From Meghimatium bilineatum (Eukaryota; Mollusca; Gastropoda; Stylommatophora; Philomycidae): a DNA stretch of 64,000 bases. The stretch covers positions 13,735,767-13,799,766 of the forward strand of contig CM067315.1 in the NCBI GenBank assembly GCA_034231615.1. Direction: 5' to 3'. This document shows positions 7,570 through 34,339 of the stretch, piece after piece. The notes under the pieces were generated by a model, which ran no database searches, was not told the origin of the DNA, and was given only the letters and a program-made list of their open reading frames with translations. A program made the translations under genes and the position numbers. Within the stretch, counting starts at the first letter, position 1. Every line of letters starts with the position of its first letter.

Positions 7570-8285
7570 AGTATTTTCTGCATACAAGAGACACGCCTCA
7601 GCACAGATGTAGCCTTTAAAATTACTGGTTACCAGTGCTTTAGAGTTGATCGAATAGAGAGAAGAAAAGGAGGTATACTTACACTAGTCAAAAAATGATA
7701 TCGAAGCATAACAAATTGAACTATACATGGAAGGAGCGGAATACCTTGCCCTCCAGCTAAGAGTAAAAACACCGACTTCCACCTACAAAATGACTATTGT
7801 CCAAATGATCAACTCCATGCCCTGGACACAATACCATACAGACGAAGATTGATAGTTTGTGAAGATTTTAGCAGTCACTTACAGAGCTGGGATTATTACT
7901 GATAGTTTGTGGAGATTTTAGCAGTCACTTACAGAGCTGGGATTATTACTGATAGTTTGTGGAGATTGTAACAATCACTTACAGAGCTGGGATTATTACT
8001 GATAGTTTGTGGAGATTTTAGCAGTCACTTACAGAGCTGGGATTATTACTGATAGTTTGTGGAGATTTTAACAGTCACTTACAGAGCTGGGATTATTACT
8101 GATAGTTTGTGGAGATTGTAACAATCACTTACAGAGCTGGGATTATTACTACATGGATAAAAAAGGAGAAAAACTAGAAAACTGGTAAGATAATACAGGT
8201 ATTTTATCACTTAATATGACGAAAGATCTTCCAACATACTATCCAATAGTATAGCAGACCACGTCTACACTAGACTTATGTAGGC
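7570..8285 (+). pseudogene. LINE APE-type endonuclease domain, broken
   Basis: In shifting plus-strand frames the sequence encodes CIQETRLSTDVAFKITGYQC, FRVDRIERRKGGILTLVK, LIVCEDFSSHLQSWDYY and then DKKGEKLENW and LPTYYPIV. These are in the order of the apurinic-like endonuclease of non-LTR retrotransposons: the QETRL glutamate metal ligand, the GDFNSH-type catalytic block, the RGEE-x-W block and PTFYS-type loop. In live elements this domain nicks target DNA for reverse transcription. Here the GDFNSH block is repeated about six times in a 50-bp array, and stops and frameshifts occur, so it is dead. The RT part is not attached. Confidence 0.8.
7847..8153. repeat. 50-bp tandem array, about 6 copies, of LINE endonuclease motif
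   Basis: The string gagctgggattattactgat recurs every 50 bases (7884, 7934, 7984, 8034, 8084, 8134). Each unit encodes the CGDFSSHLQSWDYY block of the surrounding LINE endonuclease. The first copy has gaagatt where later ones have ggagatt, and two units share gattgtaacaatc, suggesting duplication of blocks. Confidence 0.9.
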
Positions 8286-12303: not shown

Positions 12304-13530
12304 TAAGCTAGTTGTACGAGATATCTAGTTCTAGTACTTAAACACTGGTAACCAAGCTAGTTGTATGAGAGAAATAGTTCTGGTACTTACAACACTGGTA
12401 ACCAAGCTAGTTGTACGAGATATCTAGTTCTAGTACTTACAACACTGGTAACCAAGCTAGTTGTACGAGATATCTAGTTCTAGTACTTACAACACTGGTA
12501 ACCAAGCTAGTTGTACGAGATATCTAGTTCTAGTACTTAAACACTGGTAACCAAGCTAGTTGTATGAGAGAAATAGTTCTGGTACTTACAACACTGGTAA
12601 CCAAGCTAGTTGTACGAGATATCTAGTTCTAGTACTTACAACACTGGTAACCAAGCTAGTTGTACGAGATATCTAGTTCTAGTACTTACAACACTGGTAA
12701 CCAAGCTAGTTGTACGAGATATCTAGTTCTAGTACTTACAACACTGGTAACCAAGCTAGTTGTATGAGAGAACTAGTTCTGGTGCATACAACACTGGTAA
12801 CCTAGCTAGTTGTATGAGAGAAATAGTTCTGGTACTTACAACACTGGTAACCAAGCTAGTTGTATGAGAGAAATAGTTCTGGTACTTACAACACTGGTAA
12901 CCAAGCTAGTTGTATGAGAGAAATAGTTCTGGTACTTACAACACTGGTAACCAAGCTAGTTGTACGAGATATCTAGTTCTAGTACTTACAACACTGGTAA
13001 CCAAGCTAGTTGTACGAGATATCTAGTTCTAGTACTTACAACACTGGTAACCAAGCTAGTTGTATGAGATATCTAGTTCTAGTACTTACAACACTGGTAA
13101 CCAAGCTAGTTGTATGAGAGAACTAGTTCTGGTGCATACAACACTGGTAACCTAGCTAGTTGTATGAGAGAACTAGTTCTAGTACTTACAACACTGGTAA
13201 CCTAGCTAGTTGTATGAGATATCTAGTTCTAGTACTTAAACACTGGTAACCAAGCTAGTTGTATGAGAGAACTAGTTCTGGTGCTTACAACACTGGTAAC
13301 TAAGCTAGTTGTACGAAATAGCTAGTTCTAGTACTTGCAACACTGGTTACCAAGCTAGTTGTACAAGATAATTAGTTCTGGTACTTACAACACTCGTTAC
13401 CAAGCTAGTTGCTCGAGAGAACTAGTTCTGGTACTTACAATACTGAATACCTAGCTAGTTGTACGAGATAACTAGTTGTGGTACTTACAATACTGAATAC
13501 CTAGCTAGTTGTACGAGATAACTAGTTCTA
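12304..13530. repeat. minisatellite, 50-bp unit, about 24 copies
   Basis: Units beginning aagctagttgtacgagatat alternate with units beginning aagctagttgtatgagagaa. A four-unit block (short-spacer type, agag type, two agat types) occurs twice in succession at the left end. Type strings later in the array are also reused, so the array grew by block duplication. The last copies near 13.3-13.5 kb are the most diverged. The unit has stops in several frames and no coding interpretation. Confidence 0.92.
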
Positions 13531-19152: not shown

Positions 19153-19972
19153 ATGTCTAAATATGTCTATGTCATTTTGTTTCCTTAATAACCTTTACTA
19201 AAATATGTCTATATCTGTCATTACTTTCCTCAATAACCTTTACTGAAATATGTCTATATCTGTCATTACTTTCCTCAATAACCGTCACTAAAATATGTCT
19301 ATATCTGTCATTACTTTCCTCAATAACCTTTACTGAAATATGTCTATATCTGTCATTACTTTCCTCAATAACCTTTACTGAAATATGTCTATATCTGTCA
19401 TTACTTTCCTCAATAACCGTCACTAAAATATGTCTATATCTGTCATTACTTTCCTCAATAACCGGTACTAAAATATGTCTATATCTGTCATTACTTTCCT
19501 CAATAACCTTTACTGAAATATGTCTATATCTGTCATTACTTTCCTCAATAACCGTCACTAAAATATGTCTATATCTGTCATTACTTTCCTCAATAACCGT
19601 CACTAAAATATGTCTATATCTGTCATTACTTTCCTCAATAACCGGTACTAAAATATGTCTATATCTGTCATTACTTTCCTCAATAACCTTTACTGAAATA
19701 TGTCTATATCTGTCATTACTTTCCTCAATAACCGTCACTAAAATATGTCTATATCTGTCATTACTTTCCTCAATAACCGTCACTAAAATATGTCTATATC
19801 TGTCATTACTTTCCTCAATAACCGGTACTAAAATATGTCTATATCTGTCATTACTTTCCTCAAAAACCGGTACTAAAATATGTCTATATCTGTCATTACT
19901 TTCCTCAATAACCCTCACTAAAATATGTCTATATCTGTCATTACTTTCCTCAATAACCGGTACTAAAATATG
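19153..19972. repeat. minisatellite, 45-bp unit, about 18 copies, LINE-E 3' end origin
   Basis: Units aaaatatgtctatatctgtc then attactttcctcaataacc repeat every 45 bases. Unit variants (ctttactg, cgtcact, cgtcact, cggtact) form a four-unit, 180-bp block that is reiterated. The unit matches bases 25733-25778, the end of the LINE-E frame: 17 of the first 19 bases agree, and about 35 of 45 overall in my hand alignment. A 278-residue minus frame is an artefact of the 45-bp length. Confidence 0.92.
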
Positions 19973-19979
19973 TGAACAT

Positions 19980-20445
19980 GAGCACCAAAATTGCACCATA
20001 TAAAACAATCAACATACCATCAATATGCTATCAGTGTCAAACGTGGACATTAATAATGAAAGACAAATAGAAAAAAATTCTACAACAGAAATGACTTGTC
20101 TAGGTTGAATTTTCGGAGTAATAATGAGAGACAGAAACAGATAATGAAACACTAAAAGACTAAGAAACACAATGTCAATCCCGGATTACACCAGAAGACA
20201 CCAGAATAATTGTTTCTCACGTGCTTCCAGACTACCAGCAGAATGTGCCACTAAAAAAAGTACAAAATCATTGCTATACATGTACAATGGATACAAAGTC
20301 AGAGGCATTACAGGAAAAAGATGGCTTACAGAAATTAAAAGAGTCCACAAAAAACCCCATCTATGAAGCACCTCCCCCCCCCCAATGTAATCTCCAGAGA
20401 ACTCTACTTCCTCTGACGCTGCAAGGCACAAATGATTAAATCGAA
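19980..20445 (+). pseudogene. LINE-A RT tail fragment
   Basis: It aligns with the LINE-A copies at 9.7-10.0 kb (minus) and 33.83-34.31 kb. Shared strings are caccatataaaac, acaacagaaatga, atgcttccagactacc-like cgtgcttccagactacc and agagaactct. Stops and frameshifts abound. It lies between two minisatellites derived from a different LINE, so it is either an insertion or part of a mosaic. Confidence 0.8.
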
Positions 20446-20474
20446 AACAAAGAAAAATAAAAGTCATCATCTGT

Positions 20475-21760
20475 TGAAGTATCTTGCAGCACATATAGCT
20501 TTGATTCTAGTGTTGAAGTATCTTGCAGCACATATAGCTTTGATTCTAGTGTTGAAGTATCTTGCAGCACATATAGCTTTGATTCTAGTGTTGAAGTATC
20601 TTGCAGCACATATAGCTTTGATTCTAGTGTTGAAGTATCTTGCAGCACATATAGCTTTGATTCTAGTGTTGAAGTATCTTGCAGCACATATAGCTTTGAT
20701 TCTAGTGTTGAAGTATCTTGCAGCACATATAGCTTTGATTCTAGTGTTGAAGTATCTTGCAGCACATATAGCTTTGATTCTAGTGTTGAAGTATCTTGCA
20801 GCACATATAGCTTTGATTCTAGTGTTGAAGTATCTTGCAGCACATATAGCTTTGATTCTAGTGTTGAAGTATCTTGCAGCACATATAGCTTTGATTCTAG
20901 TGTTGAAGTATCTTGCAGCACATATAGCTTTGATTCTAGTGTTGAAGTATCTTGCAGCACATATAGCTTTGATTCTAGTGTTGAAGTATCTTGCAGCACA
21001 TATAGCTTTGATTCTAGTGTTGAAGTATCTTGCAGCACATATAGCTTTGATTCTAGTGTTGAAGTATCTTGCAGCACATATAGCTTTGATTCTAGTGTTG
21101 AAGTATCTTGCAGCACATATAGCTTTGATTCTAGTGTTGAAGTATCTTGCAGCACATATAGCTTTGATTCTAGTGTTGAAGTATCTTGCAGCACATATAG
21201 CTTTGATTCTAGTGTTGAAGTATCTTGCAGCACATATAGCTTTGATTCTAGTGTTGAAGTATCTTGCAGCACATATAGCTTTGATTCTAGTGTTGAAGTA
21301 TCTTGCAGCACATATAGCTTTGATTCTAGTGTTGAAGTATCTTGCAGCACATATAGCTTTGATTCTAGTGTTGAAGTATCTTGCAGCACATATAGCTTTG
21401 ATTCTAGTGTTGAAGTATCTTGCATCACATATAGCTTTGATTCTAGTGTTGAAGTATCTTGCAGCACATATAGCTTTGATTCTAGTGTTGAAGTATCTTG
21501 CAGCACATATAGCTTTGATTCTAGTGTTGAAGTATCTTGCAGCACATATAGCTTTGATTCTAGTGTTGAAGTATCTTGCAGCACATATAGCTTTGATTCT
21601 AGTGTTGAAGTATCTTGCAGCACATATAGCTTTGATTCTAGTGTTGAAGTATCTTGCATCACATATAGCTTTGATTCTAGTGTTGAAGTATCTTGCAGCA
21701 CATATAGCTTTGATTCTAGTGTTGAAGTATCTTGCAGCACATATAGCTTTGATTCTAGTG
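20475..21760. repeat. minisatellite, 39-bp unit, about 33 near-identical copies
   Basis: The unit gtgttgaagtatcttgcagc acatatagctttgattcta (39 bp) repeats almost without change. I see only two variant copies (gcatcac for gcagcac, near 21424 and 21658), exactly six units apart. The part cacatatagctttgattcta gtgttg matches LINE-E bases 25802-25827 at 22 of 26 positions. Because 39 is a multiple of three, frames of 507, 494 and 454 residues run across it on both strands; I regard all as artefacts. Confidence 0.97.
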
Positions 21761-21769
21761 AATATGAAT

Positions 21770-21945
21770 ATATGGTTGTCCTGCCTGTCCATATGTACAC
21801 ATGGCTGTGCTATCTGTCCACATGTACACATGGATGTGCTGTCTATCATCATGTATATATGGTTGTGCTGCCTGTCCATATGTACACATGTCTGTGTTGC
21901 ATGTCCACATGTACACATAGCTGTGTTGTCATTCCTGAATTTTGT
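21770..21945. repeat. 29-bp tandem array, about 5-6 copies, LINE-E origin
   Basis: The string gtacacatgg or its variant recurs at 21795, 21824, 21853 and 21882, a 29-bp period. The copy tgtgctgcctgtccatatgt acacatg (21864-21890) agrees with LINE-E bases 25899-25925 at 26 of 27 positions. Translated on the minus strand it gives the Cys-rich MCTCGQ motif repeatedly. Confidence 0.85.
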
Positions 21946-22015
21946 GTACATATGACTGCAGAGTCGGTTGTGAAATAGAGATATCTTGTTTCGTTTGTTA
22001 ATATCCTATAGTAAT
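21937..22015 (-). pseudogene. LINE-E remnant flanking the arrays
   Basis: After the 29-bp array the sequence aattttgtgtacatatgact gcagagtcgg continues the same LINE-E alignment (25947-25977: gaactttgtatacatgtgac tgcggagtcgg). The minus strand encodes MYTKFRNDNTAMCTCG, against MYTKFKISNTAMCTCG in the copy at 25.9 kb. Confidence 0.75.
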
Positions 22016-25559: not shown

Positions 25560-25695
25560 ATAAATACATTCAGTAATTTGTCATTGTTTTTTGAAAGGTT
25601 CGGATGCACAATTGCCTGTAGCAGCAATCGAACTCGGTACCTTGAAGGCATAAACGTGCTCTGTAGCCTTCCGCCAAAACGCCGGACATATAAGC
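25560..25695 (-). mobile_element. S4 tRNA-derived SINE head, minus strand
   Basis: On the minus strand: ggcggaaggctacagagcac, then ggtaccgagttcgattgctg (B box), then gcaattgtgcatccgaac. It matches the plus-strand copy at 6.30-6.43 kb closely in order. Confidence 0.65.
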
Positions 25696-25734
25696 ACAAT
25701 GTACATTCTTCTTCTTCTTCTTTCGTTCACTTGA

Positions 25735-26450
25735 AACATGTCTATATCTGTAATTCTGTCTCCTTAATAAAACTCACTGTCTTTTGTAGTTCATACAGTG
25801 TCCCATAAAGCTTTGTTTCCAGTGTTGTTCCCTCTGGCCAATATGTCTGCCTCAGCGTTTCATGCTCAGAACACTCTTGAAGTATATGTTTGGCACTCTG
25901 TGCTGCCTGTCCACATGTACACATGGCTGTGTTGCTAATCTTGAACTTTGTATACATGTGACTGCGGAGTCGGATGTGTCCTGTTCTGAGATGTAGAATT
26001 ATAACTTGTTCTGATCTGTTCATAATGTGATAGTCATCTTGTGTTGGTGTTTGTGGCTTTCTTATTGACTTTATCATCTGTTTTTTCTGATGGTAGGTGA
26101 TTGGTATATCTGGTTGGTCTTCGGCAGCACCTTCCGTAGCCAGTTGGTCTGCTTTTTCATTTCCTGGTATTCCACAGTGAGAGGGTATCCACTGCATGGT
26201 TACCCTATACTGGTACGACAATTCGCTAAGTAGTTTTTGCAAGTCTGTTAGTTTTCCAGACTGGAGAGCTTGAAGCATTGACCTTGCATCTGTCAGGAAT
26301 ACCACAGGCTGTAGGCCAGAGTTGGAGTTCAGCAGTTTTTTAGCTGCGACACTAATTGCCTGGATTTCTGCATCATAATTATTGCAGAATTTTCCTGTCG
26401 GTGTTCTGATTGTATCTCTAGGCTTGTGTGGATATTCTATATATATACAC
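25735..26450 (-). pseudogene. LINE-E RNase H domain and C-terminal tail
   Basis: A minus-strand frame of more than 200 residues encodes an RNase H-like domain: NYDAEIQAISVAAKKLL (catalytic Glu), PVVFLTDARSMLQAL (catalytic Asp), then QWIPSHCGIPGNEKADQLA (WxPxHxGxxGNExAD with the last Asp). After it come TGHIRLRSHMYTKF, NTAMCTCGQAAQSAKHILQE and YGTLYELQKTVSFI before a stop near 25746. In I, Jockey-like and related LINEs this domain degrades RNA in the RNA-DNA hybrid and follows the RT. The first catalytic Asp (usually in YTDGS) is missing because the copy is 5'-truncated near 26.45 kb. Segments of its last 200 bases match the arrays at 19.15-21.95 kb in order. Confidence 0.92.
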
Positions 26451-26574
26451 CACAATGTACATAAAGTAATTGTTGATTTACAAAAAGGACATAAAATAGA
26501 AAATGAAGAGTTTTTTTTGTACTCCTTTACCATTTTACAAACTCATATCTGCTACACTGATGTCAAATATTTCG

Positions 26575-28083: not shown

Positions 28084-28540
28084 CAGAGAGTTATGGCATC
28101 TGTCCTATGTGCCAAGACTGGCTGTTGATCGACAAGCATGGAGAGTTATGGCATCTGCCCTATGTGCCAAGATTGGCTGTTGATCGACAAGCATGGAGAG
28201 TTATGATATCTGCCCTATGTGCCAAGATTTGCTGTTGATCGACAAGCATGGAGAGTTATGATATCTGCCCTATGTGCCAAGATTTGCTGTTGATCGACAA
28301 GCATGGAGAGTTATGGCATCTGCCCTATGTGCCAAGATTTGCTGTTGATCGACAAGCATGGAGAGTTATGATATCTGCCCTATGTGCCAAGATTTGCTGT
28401 TGATCGACAAGCATGGAGAGTTATGGCATCTGCCCTATGTGCCAAGATTGGCTGTTGATCGACAAGCATGGAGAGTTATGGCATCTGCCCTATGTGCCGA
28501 ACTTGAATGTTAATCGACAAGCATGGAGAGCTATGCCATC
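28084..28540. repeat. minisatellite, 55-bp unit, about 8 copies, LINE-tail origin
   Basis: Units gagagttatggcatctgccc tatgtgccaagattggctgt and on repeat every 55 bases. Each unit encodes DRQAWRVMASALCAKIG, the D-R-x-x-W-R-x-x-x-x-ALCA signature found at the very C-terminus of many LINE RT proteins. The last unit reads on into NRQAWRAMPSSICVWHK. Confidence 0.92.
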
Positions 28541-28949
28541 TTCCATATGTGTTTGGCATAAGAGAAAAATGACGATGATAATGATATGGAACAGAAACAC
28601 AAGCTTCCAAGCCGCAATGCTCATCAAAAATGTGTAGAGAGTCGGACTTGGACGAGAGGTTCACGATGCTGGTGAATGACATGTCTGCTTAGAGTGCGAA
28701 CGAACTTGGGCACAACTCTCCCCTTGATGCTTTCCTACATCGGAATAATGGGCAGAAGCACAATACGTCTAAGTACGCGAGACAAATTCACTGGAACTGG
28801 AACACCCCGTGCGAGATAGGCGTAGTCGACCCAAGCCTAAATCCCCGAGTACCGTCACCACGGAGACTGCCACCCAGAGACATGTTTTGGATTGAAATGT
28901 TCAAGGGTTAAATTGGTGATAAACCGCCATGGCGTAGAGTCGACACACA

Positions 28950-32999: not shown

Positions 33000-34320
33000 C
33001 TATCTGCAAGAAAAAAGGTAGCAAAAGACATTGTAAAAAGTACAGAGGTATTTCACTTCTATGTCCCACTGGACAGATTTTCAACAGAATTCTACAGAGA
33101 AAATTACGAGCATTCATAAAACGCTTAACAATACTCAAATGGGATTCCGTAAGAACAAAAGCTGTAGAGATGCCAATTTCACACTCAGATAACTTGCATG
33201 AAAAAAACAACAATGAAAACAACAAAGAATTGAATTTCGCGTTTGTTGACCAAGAAAAATCTTTGGACAGAGTAGACAGACAATAACTTTGGAAAATATA
33301 ATTACAATATGGGGTTACACATCTAATCAACTTGTGTGGAAGTAGTTACACATGAAGTCATTGTGCAATTAGAATGAGCGCTGGACTTTCAGATAAATTC
33401 CACATACACTCTGGAGTTCGACAAGGATGTGTTTAATTTCATTTGTTATTCATCACATATATCGATTTCATATGTAAAATTACCAACACTAATGAAGAAG
33501 ACAATCTAAACAACCTCCTGCGCGAACTTCTTTATGCAGACTATTAAACAACAATATCAACAACAAAATAACAACTACAACAATGTATATATAGGCTTCA
33601 CACAACACGTAGGGACTTTAATATGAAGATAAACAGAAATGAACGGAGGTAATGTCAATCGCAAATACAGAAACAAACACAACTATTCTAATCGGGGACC
33701 AGCAACTTAAACAGGTGAAAGAATTCACTTATATTGGAAGCAGCATATCATCGCATTGGAAAAACGTCAAAGAAATATAACATAGCATACAGGATCTTGA
33801 GGTAGATGTCTCCTATTTTCAAAAACAAATATGTGAGCATGAACACCAAAACTGCACCATATAAAACGATCATTATACCATCACTATTCCAACAATATCA
33901 GACGTGGACACTAACAGAAGCCAGAAAACTTGTTACAACAGAAATGATTTGTCTACGTACAATCCTCGGAGTAACAATAAGAGAGAAACAGAAACGAGAA
34001 CATCAGAAGACTAACAATCACAATACCAATCCTAGATTACATCAGAAGACTAACAAACACAATACCAATCCTTGATTACATCAGAAGACAACAGATTAAG
34101 TGGTTTTCACATGCTTCCAGACTACCATCAGACAGTGTCCCTCAAAAAGCATTTCTATACAGACAAGATGGATACAAAGCTAGGGGTGACCTTGCAAAAG
34201 ATGGATTACATAAATAAAAGAGTCAACAAAAACAAACATACATGAAGCACAATAAAAAACCTCATCTAGAGAACTCTTCTGCTACGGACGCCGGAAGGCA
34301 TAAAATGTATAAAGCGAAAA
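33000..34320 (+). pseudogene. LINE-A reverse transcriptase, longest copy
   Basis: In several frames the plus strand encodes KKYRGISLLCPTGQIFNRIL (RT block 1-2), NFAFVDQEKSLDRVDRQ (motif A, F-x-D-x-x-KAFDRV), HSGVRQGCV (motif B) and NTNEEDN and LLYADY (motif C region). The tail region matching 9.70-9.95 kb follows. Stops after GCV and after YADY and many small indels make it dead, but all three catalytic blocks are in the right order over 1.3 kb. Inside it, a 39-bp segment (gactaacaaacacaatacca) is duplicated near 34012-34089. It begins just after a DR1 copy. Confidence 0.88.
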
Positions 34321-34339
34321 GAAAAAGAAAGAAAAGATA

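Follow-up and report, generated by a model that had tools for sequence, protein, structure and literature searches.

Most inferences about how minisatellites are born start from a single array with no known precursor sequence. For the retrotransposon designated here LINE-E the precursor is known from unexpanded copies, amplification of the same segments has taken place at many loci and with several joints, and the expansion states found side by side range from one joint through a few units to over 20 units. The family allows one to ask directly which short repeats start arrays, what length the first unit has, and in what way arrays enlarge and become homogenised. Three neighbouring arrays in the window (the whole 64,000-nucleotide stretch of DNA analysed here) raise the question as to whether a single LINE copy underwent expansion at three distinct points, each with its own unit length, as an earlier note on this DNA had proposed. 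We consider it likely that this is an old LINE-E copy in which three segments turned into minisatellites in place via short direct repeats, and that the same segments were amplified repeatedly in other copies.

Three arrays collinear with the LINE-E tail

LINE-E is a non-LTR retrotransposon with an RNase H domain upstream of its 3' tail (PF00075, 40 bits against a cut-off of 25.8, in the copy at 25742-26533). The window holds a young reference copy (Table 1), and at least 39 further copies at 98-99% identity were scored among at least 3602 candidate places. Tandem Repeats Finder (TRF) recovers all three arrays. Local alignment to 25690-26460 places their units on the young copy at 25732-25778 (45 bp, site A), 25804-25827 (39 bp, site C) and 25898-25937 (29 bp, site B), on one strand and with the order of the LINE kept, in agreement with the earlier note.

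Table 1. Window coordinates of the three arrays, the sequence around them and the young reference copy.
Feature	Position	Strand	Description
Site A array	19159-19973	-	45-bp units; TRF 19180-19973, 17.6 copies, with irregular copies at left; source LINE-E ~25732-25778
Insert, mostly LINE-A-like	19974-20455	.	Splits the LINE-E copy; 19995-20457 matched; no LINE-E match of note
Unamplified LINE-E, right flank of site A	20456-20471	-	LINE resumes; alignment to older consensus
Site C array	20472-21760	-	39-bp units, 33.1 copies (TRF), almost identical; source LINE-E ~25780-25827
Site B array	21772-21925	-	29-bp units, 5.3 decayed copies (TRF); source LINE-E ~25898-25937
Unamplified LINE-E cap, right end	21926-21972	-	Aligned stretch 21891-21972 overlaps last repeat unit
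Young LINE-E reference copy (L001)	25706-26440	-	RNase H reading frame; minus-strand (GAA)n tail; sites A, B and C each with a single unit

The scores against the young copy are 55 for the 29-bp unit, 45 for the 45-bp unit and 33 for the 39-bp unit, none of which was reached in 1000 dinucleotide shuffles of each unit. The other 40 arrays of the window score 14-30, and only these three of the 43 beat all of their shuffles against the LINE-E tail; the next, at 12305-13530, is reached by 2 of 1000. The tail of old LINE-E copies is diverged. Against a consensus of 15 old copies, from which the window was left out, the three units score 62, 50 and 43 (maxima of 35, 29 and 35 in 2000 base shuffles per unit) and the 40 other arrays at most 25, with the core of the 39-bp unit matching at 23 of 24 positions. 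To judge from these alignments, the source of the window arrays would resemble this older LINE-E layer more closely than the young copy at 25.7 kb. Since 14 of the 15 consensus copies were found via the window's 45-bp unit (L034 was found via the 29-bp array), the independence of the older reference is incomplete at site A. Short units, and a match of the 39-bp unit to the young copy that is of modest strength, would fit a chance similarity between units and LINE-E, but the shuffles and the 40 other window arrays, which act as controls, allow us to dismiss this explanation.

LINE-E sequence lies alongside the arrays at 20456-20471 and in the right-hand cap, which aligns to 25897-25978 over 82 bp at 85%; the left end of the copy is decayed, and inspection by eye showed no clear TTC tail or target-site duplication. 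The cap had been described in the earlier note, as had the LINE-A-like insert that splits the set, where 19995-20371 matches L003 at 73% and 20043-20457 matches L005 at 70%. LINE-E resumes at 20456 straight after this insert, which makes one interrupted copy the best reading. With the older consensus, the left edge and the 39-bp array (20456-20515) form one alignment across the LINE stretch beyond the 45-bp site, so that the site A and site C units are almost adjacent in the LINE. Three LINE-E fragments could instead have inserted side by side, or have been brought together, each then being amplified; this would fit the gap of about 70 bp that the window copy has, relative to LINE-E, between sites C and B, and the fact that no target-site duplication was seen. 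Order and orientation are kept, however, and LINE-E runs on from the site A flank into the 39-bp array, which makes such an assembly very improbable. The arrays have the properties of transposon-derived minisatellites, with head-to-tail units within 10-100 bp, homology of each unit to a stretch that the transposon carries once, and a position inside the element.

The histories of the three arrays within the interrupted copy differ. Mean pairwise unit distance is 0.207 for the 29-bp array (5 units), 0.047 for the 45-bp array (17 units) and 0.003 for the 39-bp array (33 units), ranking site B as the most decayed, then A, then C. Such strong differences in homogeneity suggest that the arrays turned over at different times, and with unit lengths and joints differing as well, the three births are best seen as separate. 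Shuffles, older consensus and unit distances together support the proposal that three distinct points of a single LINE copy were expanded, with different unit lengths.

The same segments in other LINE-E copies

Other LINE-E copies expand at all three sites. Site A (LINE-E ~25727-25778) carries arrays at no fewer than 39 other loci in the same genome (40 of 63 candidates scored), comprising 32 loci read for this site, L034, L039 and 5 unread ones; an array was confirmed in all 32 loci examined. In twelve of the 32, all of them LINE-E copies, the unit is 49 bp and the joint essentially the same (L076 and part of L088 differ by one base), and L075, with 8 units of 49 bp, is 97.9% identical to the young consensus. 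The remaining 20, all old copies, have 39-43 bp units and a joint different from that of the 49-bp class, and the window's 45-bp array has a third. As an exact 16-mer the 49-bp joint occurs 472 times in the genome vs. 5 for the reversed control; among 100 places listed, many stand alone and some lie in rows of 20 or more. The old 42-bp joint occurs 94 times vs. 1 for the control, with 36 of the 94 within one array. We also observed that, among the 100 places listed, 2.4-8.8 Mb of G000:C5 has 13 loci of the 49-bp joint vs. 5 on the whole of C1 (136 Mb), and that some arrays start no more than a few bases from where LINE-E ends 3' (L024:2235-2730, 33 bp; L011:2240-2399, 32 bp; L022:2232-2320, 44 bp).

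In a tree, 49-bp copies are interspersed among single-unit copies (the trees omit L074; no body hit was obtained for L092, and L093 contributed only 94 columns). Inheritance of the 49-bp duplication within LINE-E lineages, with later growth, seems the best reading, and the position of 49-bp copies among single-unit copies means that the duplication may have originated repeatedly. Array-bearing old copies are slightly closer to one another, at 0.244 vs. 0.260 (P = 0.096, not significant), in a clade test that dropped rows under 80 columns and kept L104 and L105 despite their partly matching a nested young LINE-E; the 42-bp duplication may be shared by descent among them.

Site B (~25898-25937) gives matches over more than one unit at 20 other loci, 9 of which were read. 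The period is mostly 29, with 30 in L034, 31 in L039 and a mixture of 21 and 29 in L038, and L081, found through site A, has a 50-bp period here. (Among the rows, L033 duplicates L032, L041 duplicates L036 and L051 duplicates L034; L043-L050 are the window's own array.) As a separate observation, L035, L036 and L042 are similar loci at 24.30, 24.48 and 24.61 Mb of G000:C5 with 31-bp and 29-bp arrays in a row, followed by a 62-bp array in L035 and L042 that is absent from L036; they look like segmental duplicates. Site C (~25780-25827) has two or more tandem matches at 7 or more other loci (14 of 14 candidates scored), in a search that would overlook any locus where the unit does not include the core of the 39-bp window unit. 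All six loci read are tandem, with periods of 35, 36, 39, 39-40, 43 and 47 and no fewer than five clearly distinct joints (possibly one and the same in L135 and L138), and further site C arrays occur in L070 (15 bp), L089 (54-57 bp) and L100 (30 bp). The window's 39-bp joint was found at no other locus among the site B and site C candidates. Sites are expanded in mixed combinations, with an array at A and a single unit at B, an array at B and a single unit at A, or arrays at both.

How often this happens was approached through copies collected without regard to arrays. No array of at least 2.5 units lies inside LINE-E in any of 44 unselected copies, most of them young. For old copies, a 26-base pattern taken just to the right of site A matched 475 places when 3 mismatches were allowed (control 0) and 66 when 2 were allowed; 34 of the 66 were read, in the order of the list, the rest being one skipped young-type place, three loci already known (L068, L085, L102) and 28 unread places. 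L106-L133 were read over 100 bases each, which covers site A and not B or C, and L121 and L122 share the same 126 bases. Site A is an array in 2 of the 34 (L072 and L089) and a single unit in 32, L100 has its array at site C, and at least 4 of the 66 places carry site A arrays.

These results bear on the possibility that the arrays, or their first duplications, were already present in the LINE RNA inserted here, as with Ogre tandem repeats. The 16-mer counts of the 49-bp joint, often present once per locus, and of the 42-bp joint fit a duplication carried by RNA. Against this, the window has its own joint at site A and a 39-bp joint of its own at site C, nearly all array-blind old copies have a single unit at site A, and sites A and B expand in different combinations. 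One joint common to many copies, the mark of an Ogre-type origin, is found for the 49-bp site A duplication elsewhere and not for the window arrays. For the window, we consider RNA-borne arrays unlikely. A single master element already bearing the three arrays was dropped as the principal explanation, given that joints, periods and site combinations differ.

Array density and the hotspot question

To the earlier note a collinear triplet in one element had looked unusual, which the array density does not support. The window (1-64000) is 27.6% minisatellite, with 44 merged arrays. With arrays collapsed to one unit each (44 births on 47.9 kb), three births within 165 bp would be found somewhere in the window with P = 0.34. 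The flanks of 45 LINE-E copies chosen without regard to arrays are 6.3% minisatellite (27 arrays in 131 kb), and the same test at flank density, for three births in 245 bp, gives P = 0.00002. Among the copies read, L040 is another LINE-E copy with three arrays, and seven others have two each (L034, L039, L070, L071, L079, L081 and L089); together with P = 0.34, these rule out a unique triplet. The arrays of L040 (401-2235) are 29 bp x 23 (~26161-26189 of the LINE), 29 bp x 5 (site B) and 33 bp x 12 (next to site A). Flank array density is 0.81 per kb for seven site B loci, 0.27 and 0.42 for site A loci and 0.21 for unselected copies (the flanks of L001 are counted in the 131 kb and left out of the per-kb comparison, the last value being 0.21 either way), which indicates that array-bearing copies tend to sit in array-rich DNA.

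Other arrays of the window also touch on LINEs. A 50-bp x 6 array at 7850-8150 reads VCGDFNSHLQSWDY in one frame, which we take to be a LINE endonuclease-type motif, and this array too seems to derive from a LINE. At 28086-28551, a 55-bp array matches (up to 93%) L007:3421-3502, a short stretch interrupting a LINE-A-like match in L007, and a 39-bp x 2.4 array at 34000-34093 lies within a LINE-A-like copy (33856-34332).

A related question is whether the LINE-E tail is a hotspot. A flank density of 27 arrays per 131 kb and at least 3602 candidate LINE-E places mean that recurrence is partly expected from copy number. In array-blind old copies, the two site A arrays compare with 0.34 expected at flank density (P = 0.047), and the LINE beyond site A has further arrays at 5 of 32 site A loci (6949 bp) vs. 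1.43 expected (P = 0.015), both counts being small; a 20-bp x 2.0 repeat at the tail of L056 is under the array threshold. A true hotspot beyond high copy number is suggested by these values, but the hotspot claim was not accepted, since copy number explains part of the recurrence and the enrichments come from small counts. More tentatively still, the LINE-E tail might hold three duplication-prone segments, each new copy seeding possible minisatellites at the same three places, so that the family would be a natural replicated assay of minisatellite birth that supplies part of the genome's large minisatellite load.

Direct repeats at the joints and comparison with known systems

In the preferred reading, an old 5'-truncated LINE-E copy at ~19.15-21.98 kb, its 3' end on the left, would have had three segments of its last ~250 bp become minisatellites in place. 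Short direct repeats native to the LINE and spaced about one unit apart would have mispaired in replication or repair, yielding a first tandem duplication that further slippage or unequal exchange would have enlarged, and the LINE-A-like insertion would have interrupted the copy between A and C. In other LINE-E copies the same segments turned into arrays repeatedly, and the 49-bp site A duplication would also have been transmitted by retrotransposition, growing after insertion in some copies.

The unexpanded sequence can be searched for such repeats. At the 29-bp joint there is a 10-bp direct repeat with 9 of 10 bases matching at a spacing of exactly 29 in unexpanded LINE-E (P = 0.010), and at the 42-bp joint an ACTT direct repeat at a spacing of 42 (P = 0.047). 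The window's site A joint is borderline (P = 0.050), its direct repeat being spaced 47 instead of 45, and the 49-bp joint has none in the strict sense (P = 0.93; P = 0.054 if 2 bases were inserted). Most tested joints would fit short direct repeats as in the slippage model of Haber and Louis, with weak support at the window's site A; the strict 49-bp joint would not. The first duplication might alternatively have arisen by reverse transcriptase slipping on its template at integration, with only growth following later in DNA. The position of site A, ~25-70 bases from the 3' end at which the reverse transcriptase begins, and joints that vary between copies would fit template slipping, which is possible at site A. 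Sites B and C are further in, however, and L040, L071 and L079 have arrays at still other places deeper within the LINE body; the differing homogeneity of the window's three arrays also speaks against it, though later turnover could cause that. Overall we judge this improbable.

Titles and the openings of abstracts mention no case in which a single LINE tail carries several arrays and the same segments are affected repeatedly, which is not proof of absence. The closest known systems, as far as excerpts of the cited sources describe them, share parts of the LINE-E pattern. Human AluS and LTR12 give rise to tandem repeats, some element regions yielding more than others (Ahmed and Liang 2012, PMC3389668, citing Jurka and Gentles 2006). 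As there, LINE-E minisatellites are born inside transposon copies, apparently more from some element regions than from others and with short direct repeats at some of the joints; unlike there, the element is a LINE tail, three arrays lie in one copy, and the same segments are traced to several joints and periods in one genome. Ogre/Tat LTR retrotransposons carry tandem repeats of varied monomers in their 3' untranslated region (PMC7004042, citing Macas et al. 2009). Common to both are repeats that differ in sequence and length, lie near the 3' end and can expand once inserted, and the 49-bp duplication behaves in this way, whereas LINE-E is a non-LTR element, its unselected copies are single-unit and the window's joints are not shared.

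In the model of Haber and Louis (1998), short direct repeats around the later unit allow a first duplication by slippage or unequal exchange, followed by growth (PMC6947457). The LINE-E anatomy would fit this scheme in part, with clear short repeats around the later unit at only some joints, and the starting sequence is a known multi-copy LINE. Finally, two mouse minisatellites of similar origin lie in MaLR-type LTRs (Kelly 1994, as listed in PMC6947457). There too one element family gave more than one minisatellite, at two loci, as opposed to dozens of loci and three sites for LINE-E.
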